DNA from: Minwuia thermotolerans
Lineage (GTDB): Bacteria > Pseudomonadota > Alphaproteobacteria > Minwuiales > Minwuiaceae
Assembly: GCF_002924445.1 (NCBI RefSeq)
Contig: NZ_PIGG01000026.1
Span: 310,001 to 374,000, forward strand
Direction: 5' to 3'
DNA length: 64,000 bases
Below, in pieces: positions 6,834 through 55,029 of this stretch (position 1 is its first letter; each line of letters starts with the position of its first letter). Both the position numbers and the translations under genes were made by a program. A model generated the notes under the pieces. The model was not told the origin of the DNA, made no database searches, and saw only the letters and a list, made by a program, of their open reading frames with translations.

Positions 6834-9800
6834 CTATTCGGCGGCGGGGACGGGCGGCACGGCCGGCTGGTCGCCCCCTTCCCGGTCCTCGCGCTCCTGG
6901 CGGTTGAGCATCCGTTCGACATGGCCGACCGGCTTCGTGAAGCGCGCCAGCAACAGGTAGAACTGGGGCACGATGAACAGCGACAGGATGGTCGAGAAGC
7001 CGATGCCGCCGATGATCACGATGCCGAGGGTGGCGCGGGTCTCGGAGCCGGCCCCCGTCGCCAGCGCCAGCGGCAGGGCGCCGAGCCCGGTCGAGATGGT
7101 GGTCATCAGGATGGGCCGCAGCCGAATGGCGGAGGCTTCGATGACCGCCTCGCGGATCTCCTTGCCCTGGTCGCGGAGCTGGTTGGCGAACTCCACGATC
7201 AGGATTGCGTTCTTCGCCGTCAGGCCGATCAGCATGATCAGCCCGATCTGGCTGTAGACGTTGATCGAGATGCCGGTGGCGAGCATCGTCGCCAGCGCTC
7301 CCGTCACCGCCAGCGGCACCGCCGTCAGGATCACGAACGGGTGGATGAAGCTCTCGAACTGCGCCGCCAGCGCCAGGAACACGATCACCAGCGCCAGCGC
7401 GAAGGTGAGGTAGAGAGCGCTGGAAGACGACTTGAACTCGTCGGACTCGCCGGCATAGGTCACGCGCGCCTCGGGCGGCAGCTCTTCCGCCGCCACGCGG
7501 TCCAGGAAGGCGAGCGCCTCGCCCAGGGTGTAGCCGGGCGCCAGCGAGGCGGAGATGGTGACGGAGCGCAGCCTGTCGGTGCGTTCCAGTTCCCGGGCCG
7601 TGGCCCCTTCCGACAGGGACACCAGGCTTTCCAGGGGGATCAGCTGGCTATCGCCTTCACCTGAGCGGACATAGATGTTGCGCAGGTCGCGCGGGCTGGA
7701 GCGGTCGGACTTCTGCGCCCGGAGGATCACGTCGTACTGCTTGCCACCCTGCTGGAAGGTGGTCACCCGCCGTTCGCCCAGCATGGTTTCCAGCGTGCGG
7801 CCGATGCTGTCGATTCGGACGCCCAGATCGGCTGCGCGGTCGCGGTCGATGTCGACGCGCAGCTCCGGCAGGGTCTGGTCGTAGCTCATGTCCGGATTGA
7901 GGATGCCCGGGTTCTCGCGCGCCTTGTCGACGATGAGCGTGGCCCACCGCTCCAGCACGTCATAGTCGGGACCGCCGATCACGAACTGCACCGGCGTTTG
8001 CGAAAACCGCTGGCCCAGGGGCGGCCGGCCGAAGGCGAAGGCCTTCACGCCCGGAACAGCCAGTACCTGCGGGAACAGCCGTCCGATCACCTCCTGCTGG
8101 CTCACCTCGCGCTCCTCCCAGGGGACAAGCCTGAGGATGCCGAAGCCGACATTGACGTCGCCCGGGCGCCCGCCGAAGCCCGGCGCCAGGATGACCAGCA
8201 CGCGCGAGCCGATCCCCTCCTCGATCAGCGGCATCAGCTTGTCTTCGACCTCGGCGACATAGCGGCTGGTGAACTCCAGGCTGGCGCCCTCCGGAGCAGT
8301 GGCGCTGACGAAGATGATGCCGCGGTCCTCCTGCGGCGCCAGTTCCTGCGGCAGGGCGAGATAGAACAGATAGGCCATGGCCGAGACCACGCCAGCCAGG
8401 GCGATGACCACGATCGGCAGCTTCAGCGCCGAGGTCAGCACCGACTTGTAGCCGTTCGACAGTCCCTTGAAGCCCTTCTCCGTCACCCGGCCGAACCAGC
8501 CCGACTGGGAACTCGGGCGAAGCAGCTTCGAACACAGCATCGGGGTCAGCGTCAGCGCGATGAAGCTGGAGAACATCACCGCCACGGCGACGGCGATGCC
8601 GAATTCCCGGAACAGCCGTCCGACATTGCCCTCCAGGAAGGAGATCGGCACGAAGACGGCGATCAGGACGATTGTCGTGGCGATGACCGCGAAGGCGATC
8701 TGACGCGCCCCGCGCAGCGCCGCAAGCAGGGGCTGTTCGCCTTCTTCGATGCGGCGGTGGATGTTCTCCAGCACCACGATGGCGTCGTCCACGACCAGGC
8801 CGATGGCCAGCACCAGCGCCAGCAGGGTCAGCACGTTGACCGAGTAGTCCAGGGCCGACAGGACGATGAAGGCGGCGAGGATCGAGACAGGGATGGCGAG
8901 AACCGGGATGATGGTGGCGGTGATCGAACGCAGGAAGACGAAGATCACCAGCACGACCAGACCGAGGGCGATCACCAGGGCGCGATAGACCTCCTCGATC
9001 GATTCCTCGATGAAGACGGATTCGTCGTAGGAGAGATCGAGCGTCATGCCCTCGGGCAGGCCGGGCGTGATCTTCGCCAGTTCTTCCCGGACTCCGCGCG
9101 CCACTTCCAGGGTGTTGGCCTTGGACTGGCGGATCACGCCGACGCCGACGGTCGTCTGGCCGTTGGAGCGGAACTCGGTGCGCTCGTCCTCCGGCCCCAG
9201 CGCCACGTCGGCCACTTCCATCAAGCGGATGACGTAGCCATCCCGCTCGGCAAGGACGATGTTGCGGAACTGCTCCACCGTCTCCAGCGAGGTCTCGGTG
9301 CGTACCGAGAGCTCCCGGGTGACCGATTCGATCCGGCCCGAGGGCAGATCGATATTCTGTTCGCGCAGCGCCGCCTCGACATCGGTGACCGTCAGCCCGC
9401 GGGCCGCCAGCTCGTTCTTCTTCAGCCAGATGCGCATGGCGAAGCGCTTGCCGCCGCCGGTGCGGACGCGGCTGACGCCGTCGACCACGGAAAAGCGGTC
9501 GATCAGCTGGCGCTCGGCGTAGTCGGTCAGCTCCATGGCGTTCATGCGGTCGCTGGAGAGCACCATCCACATCATCGCCCGGGCGTCTGATTCGCTCTTG
9601 GCCACGGTGGGCTGCTCGGCGTCGACCGGCAGTCGGTTGAGGGCGCGGCTGACGCGGTCCCGCACGTCGTTGGCCGCGGCGTCGATGTCGCGGCTGAGGT
9701 TGAACTCGACCGAGATCGACGACGATCCCTCGCGGCTGGTCGAGGCGATGCGCTTCACCCCGCCGATGCCGGCCAGTTCGTCTTCGAGCACCTGGGTGAT

Positions 9801-23197: not shown

Positions 23198-24559
23198 ATG
23201 TCCGCCCGCGTACTGGTCGTCGACGACGTCGCGCCAAATATCCGCATTCTCGAGGCGAAGCTTTCGAGCGAGTACTACAACGTCCTGACCGCGATGAACG
23301 GTCCGGAAGCGCTGGAATCGGTCGAGCGTGACAATCCGGACATCATCCTTCTCGATGTCATGATGCCGGAGATGGACGGCTTCGAGGTCTGCCGCCGGCT
23401 CAAGGCGAATCCCGACGTTTCCCACATTCCGGTGGTGATGGTCACTGCGCTCTCCGACGTCTCCGACCGGGTGCAGGGCCTGGAGGCCGGGGCAGACGAT
23501 TTCCTGACCAAACCCGTCAACGACCTGGCGCTGTTCTCGCGCGTGCGCTCGCTGGTCCGGCTGAAGATGACCATGGACGAACTGAAGCTGCGCCGTCAGA
23601 CCGGCGAACGCTTCGGCCAGCGTCAGACCGAGGCGGAGATGGAGGTCGACGGCGCGCAGGTCCTGGTCATCGACGACAACGCTTCCGACGCCCGCCTGAT
23701 CGGCCGCCACATGGGCGAGCGCTTCCACATGACCTACGAAGCCGACCCGGAAAAGGCGATGGCGCTCGCGAACTCCAATCCGCCCGAGCTGATCATCCTG
23801 TCGCTGGACCATCGCGGCGCCGATCCGCTCAGGCTGACCGCCGGCATTCGCAATCAGCCGAATTCGCGCCAGACTCCGATCCTGCTGGTGGGCGAGGAGA
23901 GCGACGTGCAGCGTGTCGCCAAGGCGCTGGAACTGGGCGTCAACGACTACATCCTGCGCCCCATCGACGCCAACGAACTGCTGGCCCGCGCCAAGACCCA
24001 GATCCGCCGCAAGCGTTATCAGGACATGCTGCGCCAGAACGTCGAGGATTCCATCGCCCTGGCGATGACCGATCCGCTGACGGGGCTGCACAACCGGCGC
24101 TATTTCGACCAGCACCTCGACACGGCCCTGGAGCGGCAGCGTGCCGCAGCCAAGCCGTTCTCGCTGATCATGCTGGACATCGACCACTTCAAGCACATCA
24201 ACGACACCCACGGTCATCCGGCCGGCGACCGCATTCTGGAGGAGTTCGCCCGGCGGCTGGAACGCGATATCCGCGGCTTCGACCTGGCGGCGCGCTATGG
24301 CGGCGAGGAATTCGTGGTCATGCTGCCTGACGCCGACGCGCCCCTGGCGGAGAAAGTGGCCGAGCGCCTGCGCGGCAATGTCGAGGCCGTGCCGTTCGAG
24401 ACCGGCGAGGCGGTGGGCAAGGTCGAGATCACCTGTTCGATCGGCGTCACCACGGTCTGCGAGGGCGACGACCGGACCAGCGTGCTCAAACGCGCGGACG
24501 AATGCCTCTACAAGGCGAAGGCCGGCGGCCGCAACCGCGTCGTCGTCGCCGCGGCCTGA
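23198..24559 (+). CDS. pleD: Diguanylate cyclase response regulator PleD
   Basis: 453 residues: receiver domain with Asp53, a second degenerate receiver-like adaptor (about 153-270), and a GGDEF domain. The active site reads GGEEF at residues 368-372, and the allosteric c-di-GMP inhibitory site RxxD is Arg359-Asp362, numbers identical to Caulobacter PleD. It makes c-di-GMP on phosphorylation and controls the motile to sessile switch. Same operon as divK. Confidence 0.97.
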   Translation: MSARVLVVDDVAPNIRILEAKLSSEYYNVLTAMNGPEALESVERDNPDIILLDVMMPEMDGFEVCRRLKANPDVSHIPVVMVTALSDVSDRVQGLEAGADDFLTKPVNDLALFSRVRSLVRLKMTMDELKLRRQTGERFGQRQTEAEMEVDGAQVLVIDDNASDARLIGRHMGERFHMTYEADPEKAMALANSNPPELIILSLDHRGADPLRLTAGIRNQPNSRQTPILLVGEESDVQRVAKALELGVNDYILRPIDANELLARAKTQIRRKRYQDMLRQNVEDSIALAMTDPLTGLHNRRYFDQHLDTALERQRAAAKPFSLIMLDIDHFKHINDTHGHPAGDRILEEFARRLERDIRGFDLAARYGGEEFVVMLPDADAPLAEKVAERLRGNVEAVPFETGEAVGKVEITCSIGVTTVCEGDDRTSVLKRADECLYKAKAGGRNRVVVAAA

Positions 24560-51406: not shown

Positions 51407-51540
51407 CTTGTCCCCCTCCGGAATCCGGGTGCGAGATTGCGCGCTTGCCGAGCCGGGTCAAGCCGCCATCGTCGTTGCCGCCTCTCCCGGTCGTGCCTAT
51501 GATCGCGTCCGGGGCGTCTGGACGGTACGGGAGCGGCTGC

Positions 51541-51915
51541 ATGGAAGTTTCATCGGATGTCTACGGGGACGCCATCGTCGTCAGGGTCAAGGGCCGGATC
51601 GACCAGAATTCGGCGGCGGCGTTCCAGACGGAACTGACCTCACGGGTCGACGCGGCCATCGAGAACCGCCAGCAGATCGTCGTCGATCTCTCCAGGGTCG
51701 ACTACATTTCCTCGGTCGGTCTGCGCGCGCTGATGATTGCCAACAAGCAGGCGCAACCCAAGGGAGTGACCATACGCGTCGCCTCCCTGCAGGAAGTGGT
51801 GAAGGAGGTCTTCACCATCAGTCATTTCGACAAGGTGTTCCCGACCTTCGACGAGATGCCCAAGGCGCTGCAGGCGGTCTCCGCGCTTTCCGCCGCCGCC
51901 TATACGGGCGAATAG
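51541..51915 (+). CDS. STAS-domain anti-sigma factor antagonist
   Basis: 124 residues of the SpoIIAA/RsbV fold. The phosphorylatable serine lies in VDYISSVGLRAL (Ser57 or Ser58). In partner switching, the dephosphorylated form binds a switch kinase and frees its target; the PP2C phosphatase encoded two genes downstream is the probable activator. ATG 51541 fits the domain start. Four-base gap to the next gene. Confidence 0.92.
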   Translation: MEVSSDVYGDAIVVRVKGRIDQNSAAAFQTELTSRVDAAIENRQQIVVDLSRVDYISSVGLRALMIANKQAQPKGVTIRVASLQEVVKEVFTISHFDKVFPTFDEMPKALQAVSALSAAAYTGE

Positions 51916-51919
51916 TCCG

Positions 51920-52870
51920 ATGCTGGTGCGGTTCTGGGGCACCCGCGGCTCGATCCCGACTGCGATGAACAATCACGACATGCGCTCGCGCGTGATGGAC
52001 GTCGCGCGCCACGTCCTGGATCATGGCGGCGGCGACGTGGAGGCGGCGGTGGACGCCATGCCGTTCCATCTGCGCGGCACCTATGGCGGCGAGAGTTCCT
52101 GCGTGCAGATCGACACGGGCGGCGAGGAGTACGTCGTCTGCGACATGGGTTCGGGCGCGCGGCGCTTCGCGCTGGACTGCCTGGGCCGGCACGGGCCGGG
52201 CGCGCCGAAGACCTACAACGTCTTCCAGAGCCATGTGCACTGGGACCATATCATGGGCTTTCCCTTCTTCGTGCCCGCCTACATTCCCGGCAACGTCATC
52301 CGCATCCACGGCTGCCACGACGTGCTGGAGCAGGCCTATCGCGGGCAGCAGTCCGACCCCTGCTTTCCCGTGCCCTTCGACTTCCTGGGGTCGACGATCG
52401 AGTTCGTGAAGCTGGAGCCCGACCGCACCTACAAGGTCGCGGACGTGACGGTGACGCCGTTCCGGCAGCTTCACCACGGCGATTCCTACGGCTACCGCTT
52501 CGAGAAGGGTGGCAAGAGCGTGGTCTACTCCACCGATTCCGAGCACAAGCTGGAGGATCACGATCACCTCGACTACGTCGTCGGGCACTTCCGCGCCGCA
52601 GACGTGGTGGTGTTCGACAGCATGTATTCCCTGGCCGAGTCGACCTCGTTGAAGGAGGACTGGGGCCATTCGTCGAACATGGTCGGGGTCGAGCTCTGTC
52701 ACCAGGCAGGTGTCGGTGAGCTTTGCCTGTTCCATCACGAGCCGATCTACTCCGACGCGCAGATCGATCAGGTTCTGGCCGAGACCGTCCGCTACGAGGA
52801 GATCGCCCGAGGCGAATATCGTCCGCTGAAGGTCACGGCTTCCTATGACGGGCTGGAAGTCACGGCCTGA
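51920..52870 (+). CDS. MBL-fold metallohydrolase
   Basis: 316 residues. The metal motif reads SHVHWDHIMG (HxHxDH), with further ligands in QLHHGD, STDSEHK and LFHHEP. N-terminal MLVRFWGTRGSIPTA is typical of this subfamily, often found beside signalling genes (phosphodiesterase or cAMP-type). Its place between the STAS gene and the CHASE2-SpoIIE gene, with gaps of four and five bases, implies a shared pathway, but its substrate is unknown. Confidence 0.9.
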   Translation: MLVRFWGTRGSIPTAMNNHDMRSRVMDVARHVLDHGGGDVEAAVDAMPFHLRGTYGGESSCVQIDTGGEEYVVCDMGSGARRFALDCLGRHGPGAPKTYNVFQSHVHWDHIMGFPFFVPAYIPGNVIRIHGCHDVLEQAYRGQQSDPCFPVPFDFLGSTIEFVKLEPDRTYKVADVTVTPFRQLHHGDSYGYRFEKGGKSVVYSTDSEHKLEDHDHLDYVVGHFRAADVVVFDSMYSLAESTSLKEDWGHSSNMVGVELCHQAGVGELCLFHHEPIYSDAQIDQVLAETVRYEEIARGEYRPLKVTASYDGLEVTA

Positions 52871-52875
52871 GCGGG

Positions 52876-55029
52876 ATGGCCGCAAGGAGCAACGATCCTG
52901 GCGGCGACGCTGCCGAACTGGCCGCCGAGCTGGGCCCGGCGCAGCGGGTCGTGACCCTCTGGCGTGGCCGCGCGCTCGGCCTTGCGCTCCTTGTACTCAA
53001 CCTCCTGATCTACGCGTTCCTCGTCACCGACGATGCGGCGCCACGGCGCTTCCTGTTCGATTTCTACCAGTTCATGGACCCGCGCGAGCCGGTCTCCGCC
53101 CTGCCGGCGATCGTCGCCATCGACGAGAAGTCCATTGCCGAACACGGGCAGTGGCCCTGGCCGCGCATCAAGGTGGCCGAACTGATCGACCGGATCGGCG
53201 CGGCGGGCGCGCTGGTGATCGGCGTCGACATCCTGTTTCTGGAGCCGGACCGGCAATCGCCGGCGCGGGCGATCCCGGCGCCGCAGGCCCTGCAGCCGGC
53301 CGTGCGGGAGTTCCTGGCGACCCTGCCCGACTATGACGAAACGCTGGTCGAAGCCATCGCCCGCAACCCTGTGGTACTGGCGCTGGCGGGCACGCGGCGG
53401 GGGGAGGGGCTGAACGGCCCGCCCCGCGTGCCGCCGATCGCCTTCGAGAATGCGGCCCTGCTGGAGCGGCTGCCGCGGTTCCCCGGCGCCGATCAGAGCA
53501 TCGGGGCCATCAGCGCCGCGGCGCTGGGGCAGGGGCTGGTCAACCCGGTGGAGGATGTCGACGCCATCATCCGGCGCGTGCCGCTGGTCGCGAACGTGAA
53601 CGGCCGGCCCGCCCCGGGCTTCGCCGCCGAGCTGCTGCGCGTCGCCCTGGGCGGCCGCATGCAGGTACGGGGCGATGCCGACGGGGTCGACGGCGTGATC
53701 ATCGGCGACTGGTTCGTGCCGAGCCTGAAGGACGGGACGGTCTACGTACCCTTCTCGCCGCCCTATGCCGACCGCTATGTCTCGGCCCATGACGTGCTGA
53801 CCGATCCTGCCGCCGCGGCCTCGCTGCAGGGCGCCATCGTGCTTGTCGGCCTGACCGGCCAGGGCCTGGTGGATTTCCCGACCTCGCCGCTGCGCGACCG
53901 GATGCCTGGCGTCGAGGTGCACGCCCAGTTGATCGAGGCCATCGATGAAGCCTATTCGATTTCCCGGCCCGACCGGGCGCGGATTGCCGAGGCGGCGCTG
54001 ATCGTGTTGGTGGGCGGGCTGTTCATCTTCGCCGTGCCCAGGCTGCGCCCCGCCATCGGCGCGCCGGTCGTCGCAGCGACCCTGATGACGGTCCTTGCCG
54101 GCGGGGCCGTTCTCTACGCGACCACGCGCGTCCTGCTGGACCCGGTCGGCGCGGCGGTCACCGGCGTGGTCGTCGGCATCGCCATGCTGGTCTCCACGCT
54201 CACCCTCGCCAACGCCCATCGCCGCGTGCTCGGCGCCAGCCTGCAGCGCGAGCGCGAGGAACAGGCCCGGGTGCAGGGTCAGCTCCAGGCCGCCGGCGAC
54301 ATTCAGGCCAACCTGCTGCCCAGGGTCGAGGGCGAGCATCTCGACGACGTGAGATATTCGCTCTCCGCGATGCTGGAACCGGCCTGGAACGTGGGCGGCG
54401 ACCTCTATGACTTCTTTCGCGTCGACCGGGACCACCTGTTCGTCGCCGTGGGCGACGTCTCCGGCAAGGGGCTGCCGGCGAGCCTGTTCATGGCCATTTC
54501 GAAATCCCTCTACAAGAGCGCGGTGCTCCGCGACAAGGGCACGATCGACGCCATCACATGCGCCGCCAACGCCGAGATCAGCCGGGAGAACCCGGACATG
54601 CTGTTCGTGACGCTGTTCGCGGGCGTCCTGGATCTGAATACCGGCGTCCTCCGGTTCTGCAATGCCGGCCACGACCCGCCCATGCTGTTGCGGCCCGGCT
54701 CGCCGGAGGTCAGCCAGCTCGAGGGCGGCGGCGGGCCACCGATCTGCGTCGTGGACGATTTCCCCTACATGGCCGCGGAAATTGCGCTGGAGCCGGGGCA
54801 GGTGGTTCTGCTGACCACGGATGGCATCGGCGAGGCTATGAACGAGGCGGGCGACCTGTTCGGGCAGGAGCGCCTGCTGGCCCTGCTGCGCGATCTGCCC
54901 GCTTGGGCCGACGCCGATGAGGTGAAGCGCCGTATCTACGAAGGCGTGAAGGCCCATGCCGGCGGTGCGGCGCCCTCCGACGACATCACCATCCTCGTGC
55001 TGCGCTGGGACGGCCCGCCGGCGGGCTGA
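52876..55029 (+). CDS. CHASE2-domain membrane sensor with SpoIIE-type PP2C phosphatase
   Basis: 717 residues. One helix at about 33-51, an extracytoplasmic CHASE2 sensor (about 60-365), three membrane helices (about 370-445), a short coiled coil (QREREEQARVQGQLQAAGDIQANLL) given here only by its position 457-481, and a SpoIIE/PP2C domain to the end. The PP2C metal residues are intact: GGDLYDF, GDVSGKG, TDGIGEA and SDDITIL. It should dephosphorylate the STAS partner encoded at 51541 in response to an outside signal. No HATPase anti-sigma kinase gene is adjacent. Confidence 0.95.
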   Translation: MAARSNDPGGDAAELAAELGPAQRVVTLWRGRALGLALLVLNLLIYAFLVTDDAAPRRFLFDFYQFMDPREPVSALPAIVAIDEKSIAEHGQWPWPRIKVAELIDRIGAAGALVIGVDILFLEPDRQSPARAIPAPQALQPAVREFLATLPDYDETLVEAIARNPVVLALAGTRRGEGLNGPPRVPPIAFENAALLERLPRFPGADQSIGAISAAALGQGLVNPVEDVDAIIRRVPLVANVNGRPAPGFAAELLRVALGGRMQVRGDADGVDGVIIGDWFVPSLKDGTVYVPFSPPYADRYVSAHDVLTDPAAAASLQGAIVLVGLTGQGLVDFPTSPLRDRMPGVEVHAQLIEAIDEAYSISRPDRARIAEAALIVLVGGLFIFAVPRLRPAIGAPVVAATLMTVLAGGAVLYATTRVLLDPVGAAVTGVVVGIAMLVSTLTLANAHRRVLGASLQREREEQARVQGQLQAAGDIQANLLPRVEGEHLDDVRYSLSAMLEPAWNVGGDLYDFFRVDRDHLFVAVGDVSGKGLPASLFMAISKSLYKSAVLRDKGTIDAITCAANAEISRENPDMLFVTLFAGVLDLNTGVLRFCNAGHDPPMLLRPGSPEVSQLEGGGGPPICVVDDFPYMAAEIALEPGQVVLLTTDGIGEAMNEAGDLFGQERLLALLRDLPAWADADEVKRRIYEGVKAHAGGAAPSDDITILVLRWDGPPAG

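Follow-up and report, generated by a model that had tools for sequence, protein, structure and literature searches.

A three-gene signalling operon in Minwuia thermotolerans

The window analysed here is a stretch of 64,000 nucleotides from the alphaproteobacterium Minwuia thermotolerans (assembly GCF_002924445.1, contig NZ_PIGG01000026.1, positions 310,001 to 374,000), and our subject is an operon at window positions 51541-55029, in which three genes lie head to tail on the + strand, separated by gaps of only 4 and 5 bases. Specifically, they encode a STAS protein, a metallo-beta-lactamase (MBL)-fold metallohydrolase, and a transmembrane protein that joins a CHASE2 sensor to a SpoIIE/PP2C phosphatase. 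An initial annotation, made from the sequence, had described this operon; its coordinates were confirmed, and the three proteins match the corresponding Pfam families. The features, in window positions, are as follows.

51475..51503, +: weak sigma-70-like promoter match upstream of the STAS gene (consensus scan, 9/12)
51541..51915, +: STAS gene, single-domain RsbV/SpoIIAA type, 124 amino acids (PF01740, E 4.6e-19)
51712..51714, +: STAS Ser58 codon (presumed site of phosphorylation), within a Y-x-S-S-x-G-L-R motif
51920..52870, +: MBL-fold metallohydrolase gene, 316 amino acids (PF12706, Lactamase_B_2, E 6.5e-16)
51953..52084, +: helical N-terminal insertion of the MBL protein, residues 12-55 (44 residues), specific to the cassette clade described below
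52229..52249, +: MBL metal-binding motif S-H-V-H-W-D-H, residues 104-110
52876..55029, +: transmembrane CHASE2 sensor with a SpoIIE/PP2C phosphatase domain, 717 amino acids
53044..54015, +: CHASE2 sensor domain, residues 57-380 (PF05226, E 2.1e-47)
54427..55008, +: SpoIIE/PP2C phosphatase domain, residues 518-711 (PF07228, E 9.8e-46)

The catalytic and regulatory residues of all three proteins are intact. The STAS protein, read from the ATG at 51541 as in the initial annotation (the listed open reading frame opens at a TTG further upstream), scores 72.2 bits against NCBIfam ant_ant_sig (cut-off 53.45), and Ser58 is a serine in all 81 aligned relatives; its phosphorylation, which the annotation had also proposed, is to be expected from homology. 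Invariant residues of the MBL protein, across 88 aligned relatives, are H105, H107, D109, H110, H185, D206, H250, H272, and H273. The annotated set of PP2C metal residues is likewise complete, with four aspartates (D54, D72, D194, and D247, in the numbering of the SpoIIE part) invariant in 69. Profile searches of the genome returned the CHASE2-SpoIIE gene as its sole SpoIIE match and only two STAS matches, namely the gene in the operon and one in a 593-residue frame, which we take to be probably a SulP transporter.

Conservation of the gene order and a six-gene cassette

The gene order is not peculiar to this genome. It is kept in six of six same-genus genomes, with MBL identities of 72-97% (in one, G002, the contig stops within the CHASE2-SpoIIE gene), and a class-wide search with the phosphatase recovered it in more distant genomes at phosphatase identities of 38-44% (G089, G088, G236, G293, G201, G100, and G287, together with G319, where an interruption splits the phosphatase); contig ends truncate the cassette in G119 and G202. 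Scanning GTDB contigs with an alignment of the MBL proteins gave 362 loci. The best-scoring 80, which come from alpha-, beta-, and gammaproteobacteria and are not a random sample, were scored with local hidden Markov models alongside 7 others. A STAS domain lies directly upstream of the MBL, or is fused to it, in 75 of the 81 loci with room upstream, and CHASE2 and SpoIIE are present in 64 of the 76 with room downstream. Where more than 4.5 kb of downstream sequence was available (68 loci), a kinase was found in 49, a FecR gene in 47, an OmpA-like lipoprotein gene in 48, and all three in 44. The associations with STAS, kinase, and FecR are independent of the query, since it held none of those sequences.

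These results reveal that the STAS-MBL-CHASE2/SpoIIE trio usually belongs to a six-gene cassette, whose other members are an RsbW-type HATPase kinase and a convergently oriented pair of FecR and OmpA-like lipoprotein genes. Since the order persists in all six genomes of the genus and also in distant families, it is far from chance, and the MBL gene is regularly present at similar loci. Across the 80 loci, no further gene family recurred around the cassette, nor was a sigma factor, GGDEF, or cyclase gene conserved beside it, an unlinked sigma factor being possible; the annotated lack of a sigma factor or cyclase target at the M. thermotolerans locus itself also holds. We found no account of the cassette in the open-access literature using the terms STAS, MBL, SpoIIE, or CHASE2.

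Individual loci show further variation. At L047, a tandem pair of STAS genes (7005-7349 and 7582-7902) precedes the MBL gene. The contig of L133 is labelled Verrucomicrobia, and its cassette kinase and MBL cluster tightly with those of Nevskia, so that it represents either a mis-binned contig or a recent transfer.

A HATPase kinase elsewhere in the genome

The initial annotation had regarded the operon as lacking its kinase, which is correct for the locus but not for the genome. Of 20 matches to PF13581 (HATPase_c_2) in M. thermotolerans, the best (E 3.5e-19), on contig C81, is the only one of single-domain size; the others lie in frames of 297-1274 amino acids, most of which are presumably histidine kinases. 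The C81 gene (G000:C81) encodes about 136 residues from its ATG, contains the N, G1, and G2 box residues (PF13581, E 9.2e-20), and shares E46, N50, D80, and G107 with its relatives. Its homologues lie in or beside the cassette in other genomes: L085 has the order kinase-STAS-MBL-phosphatase on one strand, while at L047, L082, L084, and L089, the kinase sits just past the FecR/OmpA-like pair.

Of the two kinds of partner that the annotation had proposed to look for, a HATPase kinase and a GGDEF protein, the former is borne out by co-occurrence; GGDEF genes are not retained next to the cassette. Counting unlinked copies, an RsbW-type kinase was found in 15 of 16 cassette genomes, the exception (G005) being 89% complete. 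Among 385 genomes of the class, a kinase (E up to 1e-15) is present in 14 of 14 cassette genomes and in 62 of 371 others (Fisher p 5e-11, a value that ignores kinship, related genomes not being independent). Among further cassette or MBL genomes, picked for a cut or kinase-less locus, 15 of 20 gave a kinase match, one of them weak.

The surroundings of the unlinked kinases tie them to the remainder of the cassette. In G236, the unlinked kinase adjoins OmpA-like and FecR genes as a lipoprotein-FecR-kinase set, and in the Minwuia relatives G001 and G003, it adjoins a FecR gene of cassette type. The orphan kinase on C81 forms a clade with these FecR-linked Minwuia kinases and that of G236 (support 99/97, a rough figure from a short alignment). 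Further, contig C4 of M. thermotolerans carries adjoining genes, of cassette type, for a periplasmic FecR protein and an OmpA-like lipoprotein. Hence, the M. thermotolerans cassette is complete yet scattered over three loci (the window, C81, and C4). We consider the assignment of the kinase to the C81 gene fairly secure, and M. thermotolerans very probably encodes a partner switch whose kinase can be recovered. Seemingly missing kinases may thus be found by tracing split cassettes through related genomes.

In G088 and G202 (L188:53-1195 and L187:2082-3242), the unlinked kinase adjoins a gene whose product resembles an MlaE permease, bears a STAS-like region at its N-terminus, and could be a further target of the kinase.

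Fold and family of the MBL enzyme

An AlphaFold2 model of the MBL protein (pLDDT 93, pTM 0.92) places helices at residues 18-34 and 40-45, within the insertion. The closest solved fold is RNase Z (Z 29.8, 249 residues, 2.3 Å), followed by YhfI (6kns, Z 28.2, about 21% identity in the structural alignment), yeast PDE1 (24.1), PhnP (23.8), and Apyc1 (20.4). The fold is thus predicted to belong to the RNase Z/atypical class-II phosphodiesterase branch. The signature of the atypical class-II phosphodiesterases, [T/S]HXHXDH (PMC9293780), is matched by the S-H-V-H-W-D-H motif within the PF12706 fold. The members Rv1339, YhfI, and CpdA of C. glutamicum (PMC9293780) share this fold group and the S-H-x-H-x-D-H motif; unlike them, the cassette MBL carries the 44-residue helical insertion and misses the curated score. 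Specifically, the protein reaches 45.4 bits against the NCBIfam cyclic-nucleotide phosphodiesterase NF041851 (cut-off 400) and 48.7 bits against the curated RNase Z model (cut-off 292.95), and because both scores fall far short, we file it under neither name. That the enzyme makes or destroys a small signal, as the annotation had suggested, is plausible from its predicted fold.

Cassette MBL proteins form a separate clade (support 100/100), in which the N-terminal insertion measures 43-52 residues in 60 members, versus 2-11 in 8 members of the family that fall outside it. A docking role for the insertion would be a guess. Other MBL genes of the family are common elsewhere in these genomes, where they stand alone.

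The MBL enzyme as the output of the switch

In known partner switches, the final target is a sigma factor, a cyclase, or unassigned. The initial annotation saw no place for the MBL enzyme in the classical scheme; we favour giving it one, as the output that the switch controls. Natural STAS-MBL fusions occur at four loci (L110, L125, L170, and L177), spread over three distinct branches in the MBL tree, and the fusion partner is STAS, never the kinase. At L170, a kinase lies beside the fused STAS-MBL gene, and at L167, the order is STAS-MBL-kinase; neither locus has a CHASE2-SpoIIE gene within the fetched DNA. At L161 and L171, MBL, kinase, and STAS are found in a different arrangement, the SpoIIE protein of L171 adjoining periplasmic binding proteins. 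Outside the cassette, M. thermotolerans encodes a REC-MBL fusion of the same broad enzyme family (contig C76, L214:1349-2575; PF00072, E 8.6e-25, with PF12706); therefore, enzymes of this family already serve as regulated outputs. Given the close STAS-MBL linkage (75 of 81 loci), the fusions, the loci with a kinase and STAS-MBL lacking CHASE2-SpoIIE, the REC-MBL fusion, and the absence of any other conserved neighbour family, the MBL is the likeliest output, and we judge the chances that it is in fact gated by the switch to be evenly balanced.

MBL matches in frames of 402-489 amino acids in several relatives may also be REC-MBL-like fusions. A search of the literature on REC-MBL regulators returned nothing relevant.

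One potential explanation of a different kind is that the switch is complete and acts on an unlinked target, for example, a sigma factor or cyclase, with the MBL in an accessory role, producing or removing a small molecule that feeds the sensor or the target. There is precedent, in that a sigma factor is the target of the classical RsbV/RsbW switches and a diguanylate cyclase that of SiaABCD (PMC8457831), and a review of STAS proteins lists members lacking an assigned target (PMC8256260). Candidate targets also abound, as each of the 16 cassette genomes searched encodes both class III cyclases (3-39) and GGDEF proteins (5-13); these tallies do not discriminate between substrates, given that both are present in all. 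However, no gene for a sigma factor, GGDEF protein, or cyclase has been retained beside the cassette, and an unlinked target leaves unexplained both the STAS-MBL fusions and the kinase/STAS-MBL loci with no CHASE2-SpoIIE nearby. We consider this explanation rather unlikely.

Less probable still, the MBL could be regulated by the kinase, or act as a scaffold for STAS, instead of being gated by STAS. Docking would fit the tight STAS-MBL pairing and the clade-specific helical insertion of 43-52 residues, but catalysis is favoured by metal-binding residues that are complete and invariant across 88 sequences, and no MBL is fused to a kinase. Finally, the MBL might be a housekeeping nuclease or phosphodiesterase that sits in the operon by chance. 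This hitch-hiking is conceivable inasmuch as solitary genes of the family are common in the same genomes; nevertheless, the cassette MBL forms its own fully supported clade with its own insertion, and its link to STAS persists over alpha-, beta-, and gammaproteobacteria, with fusion on three branches, all of which make chance association very improbable and disfavoured.

Several observations weigh against the MBL as a gated output and against the assembly of the scattered genes into one system. For the STAS-MBL fusion of L125, AlphaFold2 gave a model (pTM 0.72) with a disordered linker and no usable domain interface. At L137, L150, and L172, the MBL occurs without a recognisable STAS, and hence it can work without one. 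Most cassettes retain CHASE2-SpoIIE, and a second, unlinked target is possible. Cassette kinases share only 23-32% identity with the C81 orphan kinase, and since M. thermotolerans keeps the parts at three loci, their co-regulation would be an assumption. What the sequence establishes is the set of parts with intact catalytic residues, their conserved order, the presence of the kinase and FecR/OmpA genes in this genome, and the natural STAS-MBL fusions; we infer the phosphorylation cycle of STAS, its binding to the MBL, how control is directed, the substrate, and the signal.

A proposed mechanism

On balance, we lean slightly towards a six-part partner switch, composed of the window trio, the C81 kinase, and the C4 FecR and OmpA-like proteins, in which STAS gates the MBL output. 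An envelope signal would be read by CHASE2, perhaps jointly with the FecR and OmpA-like proteins, and would set the activity of the PP2C domain. The latter would dephosphorylate STAS at Ser58, and the HATPase kinase would rephosphorylate it; the phosphorylation state of STAS would determine whether it binds and gates the MBL enzyme, which, as the output, would probably cleave a phosphodiester in a nucleotide or RNA. More tentatively, and at a little under an even chance, the cassette may represent a widespread proteobacterial class of partner switches, in which a CHASE2 phosphatase, with FecR/OmpA partners in the envelope, drives a switch that ends in a STAS-gated MBL-fold phosphodiesterase.

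If the MBL is the output, it would add a new type of output to a familiar phosphorylation switch and place a large, uncharacterised MBL family in a regulatory setting. The switch would then set a signal, be it a nucleotide or RNA, by controlled destruction, rather than by sigma factor release or cyclase activation. With the natural fusions, a direct test would take a single protein plus a kinase and a phosphatase.

Comparison with known systems

The closest parallels are found in systems that share parts of this set. In SiaABCD of Pseudomonas aeruginosa, the dephosphorylated STAS protein SiaC directly activates a diguanylate cyclase (PMC8457831, PMC7647112). The two gene sets are alike in comprising a membrane PP2C phosphatase, a HATPase kinase, a STAS protein, and an enzyme as known or proposed target, but the one proposed here is an MBL-fold hydrolase, with no GGDEF gene conserved beside it, in place of a diguanylate cyclase. 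Further, the cassette sensor is CHASE2, with FecR and OmpA-like partners, and the whole CHASE2-SpoIIE protein scores 42.5 bits against NCBIfam SiaA, short of the cut-off of 700.

RsbU/RsbV/RsbW and SpoIIE/SpoIIAA/SpoIIAB share with the cassette the three protein families and the expected phosphorylation cycle on a STAS serine. Three marks of the RsbU/V/W type are found, namely a single-domain STAS with a presumed phosphorylatable serine, the PP2C/SpoIIE metal aspartates, and, in the same genome, a HATPase_c_2 kinase with N and G boxes; the target that kinase or STAS would bind in turn is proposed to be the MBL enzyme. In contrast to these systems, the cassette has an MBL enzyme, and the 80 loci conserve no cognate sigma factor gene alongside it, as a classical sigma-factor partner switch would, an unlinked one being possible. 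RbaV/RbaW of Rhodobacter capsulatus is likewise an alphaproteobacterial STAS/HATPase switch whose STAS target is unassigned; the available excerpts of its accounts mention no MBL member (PMC3999984; PMC8256260).

Judged from gene order alone, the FecR protein and OmpA-like lipoprotein may feed CHASE2. In a Burkholderia biofilm operon, a CHASE2 membrane sensor on a histidine kinase is encoded beside a FecR-domain protein, with a response regulator; that operon differs from the cassette in its kinase and regulator and in lacking STAS, MBL, and SpoIIE (PMC5192318). Because CHASE2 adjoins FecR there too, the FecR/CHASE2 combination looks like a reusable envelope-sensing front end.

Other observations

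The operon is flanked by a glutathione S-transferase-like gene on the opposite strand and a zinc-binding dehydrogenase gene on the same strand. The sigma-70-like consensus scan near the STAS gene gave 1 match versus 0.4 expected and is no evidence of function. A reading of the operon as a defence system is unsupported, PADLOC having returned no match for its three proteins. The window also encodes a GGDEF protein (23198-24559, +; GGDEF part about 24062-24538, G000:C26:334062-334538), 27 kb upstream of the operon; we dropped it as the target of the switch, given this distance and the position of the top GGDEF matches of G003, more than 200 kb from its cassette.

Two further variants were noted. 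L171 (2-754 and 751-4828) and L161 carry a set with a SpoIIE protein and periplasmic amino-acid-binding-like/permease genes, without CHASE2. On the Alteromonadales-type contigs of L137 (8999-9367) and L150 (3163-3531), the STAS-less MBL gene faces a convergent gene of 122 amino acids, which has no Pfam match and appears SpoIIAA-like by eye.

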